A stretch of DNA of 58,578 nt from Fimbriimonadaceae bacterium. GTDB lineage: Bacteria > Armatimonadota > Fimbriimonadia > Fimbriimonadales > Fimbriimonadaceae. Each line of letters starts with the position of its first letter. The stretch's first letter is position 1. Positions 55,195 to 58,578 of this stretch are shown piece by piece. Both the position numbers and the translations under genes were made by a program. The stretch spans positions 1 to 58,578 of the forward strand of contig JALOLT010000002.1 in assembly GCA_025455775.1 (NCBI GenBank), read 5' to 3'. Below the pieces are notes generated by a model. The model was not told where the DNA came from, ran no database searches, and worked only from the letters and a program-made list of their open reading frames with translations.

Positions 55195-56427
55195 ATGAGG
55201 CAATTAAGTGATATTCGATTGGATCGTTCCGTCTTTCGCTCTGAAGAGCTTGCCGGGGATGCCCTGGTGCGCATGCAAGCGGAAGGCGCGAAGGCTGCCT
55301 CGGTTTTGGAAGATGACCTGATCTGCGGATTTGTGACCCTCGAATCTGTCACCCTAGCAGATGGGGAGACCAAGCTCGGTGACCTGCAAAGAGCCTTTGG
55401 GACAAGCCTCTCTGGAACTACTACCATTCGGGCTGCCGCCAAGGTGATGGCTCTGACCAAAGAGGATGTGGTTGCAGTGATGGCAGATGAGAAAGTTCTC
55501 GGCCTGCTGAGTGCGACTGCCTTGCTGGGTGAGCTCGGGAACTCCTGGGATCCCCTCACTGGCCTTTCGTGGAGCGATCGCCTGAGAGAGTGGGGAACGG
55601 AGCAACTCGAGTCAGGCCACGAAATTTCCATCGTCTTCATGGATATTGATGACTTTGGCCTCTACAACAAAAAGTTCGGCCACATAGTGGGGGATAAGGT
55701 GATCAAAGCTCTAGCCGAACACCTGGGGGGCATCACCAGTGTTGAGACAGACGTGTTGGTTCGATATGCAGGGGACGAGTTCGCAATTGGCACGGTGCGG
55801 GCTCGCGAGCAAGCAGAAGAGATGGTTCTCCACCTTTCGGAACTCGCCTTTCGAGTAGAAGGGGTCGAAGAGCCAGTTCGATTTAGTTATGGCTTAAGTG
55901 GCGGAAAAAGAACAAAAGAACCCTCGCGTCACCATGTCCAGGCAACTCTCGACAATCTGATTAACTTGGCGAGTCAGGATTGCCTGGAACGCAAGGCAGC
56001 CCGCAAAGTCCAAGAGGCTGGGAAAGGGGTTCGAAAAATTGTGGTTGCATCCCCAGCCGCTGAGCCAGTCATCAGCGACGTCAGGGTCCATCGGGAGTCT
56101 GTGATGGTAGCCCTCACCAGCGAAGGGAGGCTGATCGAAGGGGTCGCCCAGCGCAGTGGCCCAGGCCTGGTAGCCCCCGTGATTGCTGCAAGCCGCCAGG
56201 CCCTTGAAACTTTGCTCCCTGGTTCCGTCATCACGATCTCCGAACCCTTGCTCCATGTAGGCGAAGGGGGGCGGACTATGATCTCGGTGGACGGGACAGT
56301 CGAGCGAGACGGCCAGGTCACCCTGGTAAATGCAACCCATCCTGTGCAAGGCGATTTGGGGCGCACTGTGGCAGCCGCAGTGATTCAAGCTGTCCTGAGT
56401 GCTCAGCCAGGGGCTGAAGACTCGTAA
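55195..56427 (+). CDS. Diguanylate cyclase-like GGDEF protein with CBS-like and C-terminal domains
   Basis: 410 residues. Residues 1-115 look like a CBS pair (CGFVTLESVTLADGETKLGDL, VVAVMADEKVLGLLSATALLG). The GGDEF domain spans about 120-275: DPLTGLSWSDRL, VFMDIDDFGLYNKKFGHIVGD and AGDEF at 192-196, an active-type variant. The I-site RxxD is absent (VETD). Residues about 290-400 are a separate repeat-like alpha/beta domain (VRVHRESVMVALTSEGRLIEGVAQRSGPG). Cytoplasmic, apparently catalytically competent. Confidence 0.85.
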   Translation: MRQLSDIRLDRSVFRSEELAGDALVRMQAEGAKAASVLEDDLICGFVTLESVTLADGETKLGDLQRAFGTSLSGTTTIRAAAKVMALTKEDVVAVMADEKVLGLLSATALLGELGNSWDPLTGLSWSDRLREWGTEQLESGHEISIVFMDIDDFGLYNKKFGHIVGDKVIKALAEHLGGITSVETDVLVRYAGDEFAIGTVRAREQAEEMVLHLSELAFRVEGVEEPVRFSYGLSGGKRTKEPSRHHVQATLDNLINLASQDCLERKAARKVQEAGKGVRKIVVASPAAEPVISDVRVHRESVMVALTSEGRLIEGVAQRSGPGLVAPVIAASRQALETLLPGSVITISEPLLHVGEGGRTMISVDGTVERDGQVTLVNATHPVQGDLGRTVAAAVIQAVLSAQPGAEDS

Positions 56428-56559: not shown

Positions 56560-56630
56560 TTAAAACCCCGCCTCCCCGCGGCCACACCCTCGCCCCGCCT
56601 CCGGCGGGTCTCCGCCTCGGCGGGGTTTAA
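56560..56630. repeat. Nested G/C-rich inverted repeat before the recombinase remnant
   Basis: TTAAAACCCCGCC (56560-56572) faces GGCGGGGTTTAA (56619-56630), enclosing an inner CCCGCC/GGCGGG hairpin near 56594-56609. The 208-base stretch 56428-56635 has no recognised gene. May be a terminator for the GGDEF gene or an end of the mobile remnant. Confidence 0.45.
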
Positions 56631-56635
56631 GGGCA

Positions 56636-57035
56636 GTGGGGGCTTCGATGATTGTAGTTGGCGGCTCCTTGCACGAGGGATCGGCGGCCAATCCTCGTCT
56701 GGTCGAGTGTCTCGATGCCCTGGGTGGCGGGCTTGCGGCCCTCGGATTGGCTCTTTCCTGCCTTCGATACCCGTGGGACGATTCAGTCTTCCCGCCCGAT
56801 GAGCAGAGGAGACGTCTTGCGAATGGTGAAGCGACGGCTCTTGCGCGCCGGGATTCCGCCGGTGTTTTCTAGGCACTCCTTCCGGTCGACTGGCATCACG
56901 GCGTTTCTTGCCAACGGAGGTTCACTCGAAACCGCCCAACAACTCGCCAACCACGCCGACAGCAGAACAACTAAGCTCTATGACCGAAGAGCAACGAGGC
57001 TTGAGTTGCAGGAGATTGTGAGGATTCGGTACTGA
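56636..57035 (+). pseudogene. Tyrosine recombinase/integrase remnant, 5'-truncated and frameshifted
   Basis: The 3' part in the frame ending at 57035 reads MSRGDVLRMVKRRLLRAGIP, RHSFRSTGITAFLANGG, QQLANHADSRTTKLYDRR: the catalytic HxxR, second H and Tyr of tyrosine recombinases. A preceding piece of the same family (GGSLHEGSAANPRLVECLDA) is read in another frame from 56636, so a frameshift lies near 56735-56760. The N-terminal two thirds, with the first catalytic Arg, is missing. Inactive relic of a mobile element. Confidence 0.7.
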
Positions 57036-57258: not shown

Positions 57259-57588
57259 TCAACGAAGCGATGAGTCCTCAAGATCCTTATTCCTTTTTGT
57301 TGTCCGCCCGAGCCGGACATTTAAGAAAACCTTTGTCGATGTGGATGTTAAGTCCGGACTAAGGCATAAGCCTACAGGAATCAGAAACAAAAGCTGATTC
57401 CATGTGAACTTTAGATGGCCAAATGAGGCGAGCAGCAGCAAAACCAAAAAGGAAAGCGACGCGCTAATCAAGGGTATCCACCCCCGGAGAGAAATGTGCT
57501 TCGAACTAAACACTCTGCTTCTCAGCACAAGAGTAGTTACCAGGAAACAAACTACTACCACAATTGTGGTTAAGATCGAGTCATTCAT
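57259..57588 (-). CDS. Small membrane protein, candidate immunity protein for the RHS tip
   Basis: 109 residues from ATG 57588, which overlaps the RHS stop by 8 bases (ATGAATGA); a TTG 9 bases upstream is also possible. Three hydrophobic segments are visible (TTIVVVVCFLVTTLVL; WIPLISASLSFLVLLLLASF; QLLFLIPVGLCL) followed by a basic tail. Small overlapping genes right after polymorphic toxin tips usually encode immunity proteins; no family recognised. The 223-base gap 57036-57258 has nothing recognised. Confidence 0.55.
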   Translation of the reverse strand: MNDSILTTIVVVVCFLVTTLVLRSRVFSSKHISLRGWIPLISASLSFLVLLLLASFGHLKFTWNQLLFLIPVGLCLSPDLTSTSTKVFLNVRLGRTTKRNKDLEDSSLR

Positions 57589-58285
57589 TGCTGCCAAATA
57601 CTGCCCCCCAAGATTCGCTGTAGGCAGGACTTAAGAAGTAAGCCAACAGAGCAGAATAAACACCCACAATTGCTCCAACCTTGCCAGCCGCCATGAGGGC
57701 CACTCCGATTTTTCCCTTGTTCGTTTTGAGCAACGACAGATGAATTCTTTTGACTAGTTCAGTGAGTGAGAGATTTCCATACTTTGCCGCCTTAACGTCT
57801 TGCAATAGGGTAAGCGCAAAACTACCGATAGCGCCAACCACTGCATCTGTTGCGAGCTTCATTACTCCATCTGGCCTGTAGCGATTATTGAGAAGAACCC
57901 GTACCCAAGAAGTGAGGCCAGCTGCGACAAAAAACGCAAGACCTTGAGTGAGAGCTGCGAGAAATCCCATCCAAACAGCTTGGGCAGCCTTGCCGTCTGG
58001 ATCGTTCGGAATGGTTGGGATGTTTCCGACATATGCATACCAATTGCCGCCGTCGCCGATAGGATCTTCGCTGATAAACCTCCCGCTACCCGGCTCGTAG
58101 AACCTCGCCCTCATATAGATCAGCCGAGACTCATCGTCTTGCACATGGCCGAGGTTGGCGCAGTAGCGTTGCTTCGGCCCGCCGGTCGCGGAGCCAGATC
58201 TCACCCCGCCCCAGACGTCATACGACCTCTGATTGCCAATGCTCCAAGAAGTGCCGGCCGCATTTTTGCGCAGCGTCGCAACCAT
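57581..58285 (-). CDS. RHS repeat-associated core fragment with unique C-terminal tip (orphan toxin cassette)
   Basis: 234 residues from ATG 58285; the frame is open to an in-frame TAA at 58375. The RHS core end is clear: RLIYMRARFYEPGSGRFISEDPIGDGGNWYAYVGN and DPDGKAAQ. Upstream codons (GPGGEQRESETTTVYPLYDTHGN) are also RHS-like, so the 5' part has been lost. The tip of about 130 residues is hydrophobic in stretches (VWMGFLAALTQGLAFFVAAGL; VGAIVGVYSALLAYFL), consistent with a membrane-acting effector; no toxin family recognised. Probably silent as it stands. Confidence 0.75.
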   Translation of the reverse strand: MVATLRKNAAGTSWSIGNQRSYDVWGGVRSGSATGGPKQRYCANLGHVQDDESRLIYMRARFYEPGSGRFISEDPIGDGGNWYAYVGNIPTIPNDPDGKAAQAVWMGFLAALTQGLAFFVAAGLTSWVRVLLNNRYRPDGVMKLATDAVVGAIGSFALTLLQDVKAAKYGNLSLTELVKRIHLSLLKTNKGKIGVALMAAGKVGAIVGVYSALLAYFLSPAYSESWGAVFGSNE

Positions 58286-58368
58286 ATTCCCATGAGTATC
58301 ATACAGCGGATAGACGGTCGTTGTTTCAGATTCTCGCTGCTCGCCGCCCGGCCCGGTGCCACGCCCTT

Positions 58369-58526
58369 CCCTTTAGGGTCGCTTCGCGACCAAAAGGGAC
58401 TGCGCCCCGGTCGGCGAAGCCGACACTAGAAAAATGAGCGAGGGAAGCGTCCCGGATGCGCTACTTCTCCATCTGCCAGTCCCTCTCCCGCCGCGGCTGG
58501 GCGGAGACTTTTGCAAGGCAAAAGTC
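58369..58526. repeat. Cluster of perfect hairpins upstream of the RHS fragment
   Basis: Three short palindromes: GGTCGC/GCGACC with TTC loop (58377-58391, in a longer imperfect stem 58369-58401), GTCGGC/GCCGAC with GAA loop (58410-58424), and GACTTTTGC/GCAAAAGTC with AAG loop (58506-58526). Their style matches the GAA-loop hairpin at 32402-32422. The TAA that interrupts the RHS frame lies within the first one. No gene is recognised between 58376 and the window end. Confidence 0.6.
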
Positions 58527-58578
58527 GAGGGTCTGGCTCGGGCAGGCGCGGCGAGGAGTCTTTGCTCAGGTGGAAACA

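Follow-up and report, generated by a model that had tools for sequence, protein, structure and literature searches.

The locus

The window, by which we mean the whole stretch of 58,578 bases that was analysed, is the complete contig C99 of the genome studied here (G000). The features that concern us are the following.

56658..57035, plus strand: tyrosine recombinase/phage integrase, C-terminal fragment only, in convergent orientation to the cassette (PF00589, E 3e-11)
57259..57588, minus strand: partner gene, with its ATG at 57588, for a 109-residue membrane protein; a candidate immunity protein, judging by its hydrophobic helices and its position behind the tip
57581..57988, minus strand, stop codon included (57584-57988 without it): tip, a hydrophobic C-terminal domain of 135 residues; a candidate membrane-active toxin, judging by two Kyte-Doolittle segments and low GC
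57989..58350, minus strand: the end of a truncated RHS core (stub), C-terminal plug included (TIGR03696, E 5.4e-17), with neither a start codon nor a ribosome binding site of its own
58355..58578, minus strand: GC-rich, hairpin-rich, non-RHS repeat immediately 5' of the stub and reaching the contig end

Counted from its first ATG, the RHS-end reading frame occupies 57581-58285 on the minus strand, with its stop codon at 57581-57583, and it is open only as far back as a TAA at 58373-58375. Residues 22-98 of the stub frame match the Rhs_assc_core model TIGR03696; homology begins at about 58350 and the core remnant amounts to some 115 residues, for which the best match among solved structures is Tse5. 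The match is followed by DPDGK and then by the unique tip. The plug motif is kept at the core end as DPIG-X17-DPDG (DPIG at 58055-58066, DPDG at 57992-58003), with both aspartates present. A DPXG-X18/19-DPXG aspartyl-protease plug motif has been described (PMC10684867), and it cuts the toxin off in Tse5 and other Rhs proteins; the spacing in the window is one residue shorter than in this Enterobacteriaceae motif.

An earlier sequence-only reading of this DNA had described an RHS core end followed by a tip of roughly 130 residues with hydrophobic stretches, and the core match and the length of the tip bear this out. The tip contains small-xxx-G-xxx-small motifs (AGKVGAIVG, GAIVGVYSA) and no GxxxGxxxG, and its GC content is 0.489 versus 0.577 for the core. 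It is predicted at low confidence to be all-helical in a single-sequence AlphaFold model; the folds obtained in this way for tip and partner are poor (pLDDT 58 and 61). The partner start overlaps the tip stop by 8 bases, exactly as first read, and an alternative TTG start at 57597 would give 112 amino acids. The partner had also been described as a three-helix protein. It is indeed a membrane protein, with two strong hydrophobic segments, but the third segment is weaker, and three helices are plausible rather than certain.

Neither protein matches a family in Pfam, NCBIfam or PADLOC, as had been suspected. A search of PHROGs returned the core and a marginal holin match (E 0.06), and a sequence search of the PDB returned the core only: Tse5 was aligned just over residues 8-98, and no homology to Tse5-CT was found. 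No full-length RHS protein with exactly this tip came to light in 291 genomes of the phylum, GTDB contigs or plasmids; no close relatives of the tip were found in GTDB contigs, and the tip search of plasmids was empty. An alignment of the core end (A1) gave nothing confirmed against GTDB and viral contigs, and Rfam gave nothing. One weak tip match (L028, in G092) was dismissed as a short-chain dehydrogenase. Two weak partner matches (L030, L031) were likewise set aside, since they have no RHS linkage, one of them contains stops and the other lies within a large glycosyltransferase-like protein. Away from RHS genes the partner was not found in 101 genomes, so the small gene is not seen unlinked.

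It had further been claimed that the 5' part of the RHS gene is gone. RHS homology does run out near the TAA, about 228 bases short of the contig end, and what lies between the TAA and the contig end, 203 bases, is the hairpin-rich, non-RHS repeat. However, the window is a complete contig, and the missing 5' part is therefore in part a contig-end effect; the 5' part is absent as far as the visible sequence reaches.

Other cassettes in the same genome

Two further orphan stubs with the same core type are present in G000, on contigs C26 and C167. The 5' boundary of RHS sequence (GGEQRES...TTTVYPLYDTHG) is common to all three stubs, in two different contexts. The stub on C26 is internal to a continuous contig: a PEP-CTERM gene and a tRNA-Arg precede it, and behind it come an overlapping membrane protein of its own and a decayed integrase piece related to that of the window (C26:33228-33338, 68% identical). 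The stub on C167 carries a short soluble tip with no clear partner, and the repeat copy 5' of it, which like that of C99 stands at a contig end, is 98% identical to the one on C99. The outermost 74 bases of C99 exactly match the end of C26, from which it is plausible that C26 joins either C99 or C167. A longer RHS gene of the same core type (more than 1,050 amino acids, cut by the contig start) lies on C135; it ends in a different membrane tip, and its four-helix partner overlaps the tip by 14 bases.

Several other observations were made in this genome. Truncated tyrosine-recombinase C-termini stand convergently behind two different RHS tip cassettes, at 56658-57035 in the window and at the C26 position given above. 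A GC-rich palindromic intergenic repeat at 56560-56640 has copies of 80-85% identity on C130 and C62. At 55195-56427 a protein with a degenerate GGDEF-like motif (YAGDEF) is encoded, apparently joined to other signalling domains. Finally, many other short stubs in G000 carry a second RHS core type (YYDSSTGRFLTRDPIKDG); their tips are varied, and most of them have a small overlapping ORF downstream.

L019 and L021-L026, on contigs C130, C161, C159, C68, C62, C138 and C139: loci of the second core type

Survey of the phylum

Of 291 genomes of the phylum, 49 contain RHS core ends recognised by a profile of the core end in the window, 133 in all; 126 tips were measurable. There are 93 short stubs with an upstream stop and 20 full-length genes, the latter with a signal-peptide-like N-terminus and a DUF6531 plug. 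Some single-contig genomes, G006, G059 and G017 among them, contain tandem arrays of four to eight cassettes. The tips have a median length of 133 amino acids (114-152 between the 5th and 95th percentiles), start with DxxG in 123 of 126 relatives, and contain at least one predicted membrane segment in 95 of 126, a quarter of the family being without one. Behind the conserved core they are hypervariable: mean column identity is 8%, and the only conserved polar residue is the boundary aspartate. This is not the behaviour of an ordinary housekeeping end of RHS proteins. GxxxGxxxG is found in 29 of the 126 tips versus 19 +/- 4 in shuffled tips, a modest excess. None of the tips gave a convincing match to a Pfam or NCBIfam family; individual tips had hits with E values between 5e-4 and 1e-2, which were dismissed as noise from hydrophobic composition.

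As for the downstream gene, which was expected always to follow, a small ORF whose start lies between -30 and +60 relative to the tip stop is present behind 112 of the 126 tips, that is, behind most and not all, and 77 of these ORFs overlap or touch the tip. Of the 86 partners of membrane tips, 74 are membranous, and of the 26 that follow soluble tips, 12 (p 8e-5); 7% of antisense controls at the same places are membranous. We prefer this control to random positions, which give inflated values because the loci hold other cassettes. Among 69 pairs of homologous tips, the similarity of the partners exceeds background in 23, where 5% would be expected, and the partners are usually less than 30% identical. 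GC falls from 0.573 in the core end to 0.503 in the tip and 0.482 in the partner, and tip GC is below core GC in 118 of 124 cases.

Distant relatives and possible movement of cassettes

The only relatives found for the window tip are distant. A tip in genome G180 is 31% identical over the full window tip (phmmer 1e-4), and one in G017 was reached through it. An iterated profile of the tip family collects 16-18 members, but reversed decoys score E 1e-3 to 1e-2; hence we claim kinship for the window, G180 and G017 tips, and not for one superfamily.

The genome G180, a single contig, contains two copies of a block of 2,902 bp with two tip/partner pairs. The copies lie about 128 kb from each other and are 100% identical, and the 5' edge of the block falls within the RHS core end.

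L098:1255-4156: block copy that is an orphan stub after a ribosomal-protein-S1-like gene
L099:4242-7143: block copy behind a full-length RHS body

In the full-length gene the frame is broken just before the core end (about 4142-4181 of L099), and the tip frame behind the break is open; the break could be real or a sequencing error. This duplicated block is the nearest we have to direct evidence of cassette movement. It joins the stubs on C26 and C167 and the tandem arrays of relatives in agreeing with the original idea of a silent orphan tip cassette.

Presentation of the hypothesis

In our opinion, the locus is probably a displaced, translationally silent polymorphic-toxin cassette, an rhs-CT/rhsI orphan module whose product would insert into membranes and which brings its own immunity protein. 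Its nature as a cassette is well supported. Membrane action of the tip is what its hydrophobicity and the type of its partner suggest, and the survey is consistent with a candidate membrane toxin/immunity pair.

We envisage the following course of events. The orphan tip is probably not produced. Recombination in the common core end could move tip and partner together onto a full-length RHS gene, whose product, with its signal peptide, DUF6531 plug and YD shell, would enclose the tip. The aspartyl-protease plug would then release the tip by cutting at the DPxG site, and delivery to neighbouring cells would take a route other than a type VI secretion system (T6SS). By analogy with Tse5/Tsi5 and the CDI ionophores, the freed tip may insert into the inner membrane of the target as a helix bundle and depolarise the cell, and the partner, seated in the producer's own membrane, would block the cognate tip. 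Even as an orphan, the partner alone may still protect.

Alternative explanations

The silent cassette could be accepted and the mode of action disputed: the tip might be a membrane-embedded enzyme, or might jam a membrane protein, instead of forming a pore or ionophore. We regard this as unlikely, though it is the strongest of the alternatives. Indeed, no catalytic or pore family was recognised, and membrane immunity would be compatible with such an activity too. However, the tip is largely hydrophobic helix with small-xxx-small motifs, the boundary aspartate is the sole polar residue conserved across tips, and the nearest analogues with membrane immunity that have been studied by experiment act by depolarisation.

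It is less likely still that the locus is a pseudogene in decay, left behind when RHS genes turned over, that the small ORF is a by-product and that neither protein is made. The stub without a start, the fragmentary integrase beside it, the surrounding repeats and the short soluble tip on C167, which has no clear partner, all fit decay. Against this, tip and partner each keep an open frame with a membrane pattern, very diverged cassettes commonly show the overlap, antisense controls are almost never membranous, and expression of orphan immunity genes is known elsewhere.

A third explanation, that the RHS gene is whole and was merely cut by the assembly or interrupted by a short repeat, we consider very improbable. 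The window does end 203 bases upstream of the stop that precedes the stub, and the repeat creates a branch between contigs. Yet those upstream bases are not RHS sequence, the overlapping end of C26 is free of RHS for about 0.4 kb before the partner of another cassette is met, and C26 itself shows an orphan within a continuous contig.

It is hardly credible that the tail simply anchors an RHS wall protein in the membrane in the ordinary way and that the gene behind it has nothing to do with it: hydrophobic tails do end many RHS proteins of the phylum, but they are hypervariable behind their conserved core, travel in arrays and co-occur with a membrane partner.

Implications of the hypothesis

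Returning to the silent membrane-toxin cassette, a broader proposal can be made, for and against which we would lay equal weight. The phylum, which appears to do without T6SS, may keep a large repertoire of hypervariable RHS toxins that insert into membranes, stored as tandem silent cassettes beside RHS genes that bear signal peptides and each accompanied by a membrane immunity protein of two to four helices. Such a repertoire would parallel the CDI ionophore family independently on RHS proteins, with the window pair as one unseen type. The T6SS sheath gene VipB/TssC (PF05943) was not found in 61 genomes (G000 and 60 related ones), the E. coli control being positive. Few worked examples exist of pore-forming RHS tips with membrane immunity. 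If the proposal is true, more than 90 membrane tips with membrane partners on one conserved core end would make a natural panel for the study of recognition between helical toxins and their immunity proteins. A further question that it poses is by what route RHS toxins exit and enter cells without T6SS.

Relationship to known systems

Earlier work has described orphan Rhs toxin/immunity modules (PMC3150448, PMC3967940), cassettes of polymorphic toxins (PMC3482391), pore-forming tips of RHS proteins (PMC9637101, PMC10684867) and, on CdiA, large families of ionophores (PMC11630599). Our search of the literature on RHS toxins in Armatimonadota found nothing specific. The cassette type is thus a known one, whereas the tip/partner family of the window and a membrane-tip repertoire in a T6SS-less phylum appear to be undescribed.

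Tse5-CT/Tsi5 of Pseudomonas aeruginosa resembles the window family in its RHS shell, its DUF6531 plug and its aspartyl-protease plug (DPxG...DPxG), and it resembles the window pair in a hydrophobic tip of about 130-150 residues with an adjacent gene for an immunity protein with transmembrane segments. The differences are that sequence similarity was not found beyond the core, that the sheath gene was not found in the 61 genomes searched, G000 included, and that full-length relatives of the window family have a signal-peptide-like N-terminus, not a PAAR-like one.

The ionophore toxins of contact-dependent inhibition (CdiA-CT of the EC93 type, with CdiI) are likewise a large and very diverse set of helical membrane tips, and their immunity proteins, which are small (72-100 amino acids), hydrophobic and fast-diverging, resemble the partners of the window family. 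In contrast to them, the window family has an RHS core in place of the CdiA scaffold with its VENN boundary, and its partners often have three hydrophobic segments and not a two-helix hairpin. The CDI ionophores depolarise cells; for the window family depolarisation is a prediction.

The third comparison is with the orphan rhs-CT/rhsI and cdiA-CT/cdiI modules of Salmonella, Dickeya and E. coli. The window family differs from these in its core lineage and its mostly membrane-type tips, and no main gene directly ahead of the window copy is visible on the contig. The likeness lies in the architecture: these too are 3' fragments that have been displaced and lack start codons, and an immunity gene goes with each. 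They form arrays behind a main gene with which they can recombine, and functional orphan modules are known among them.
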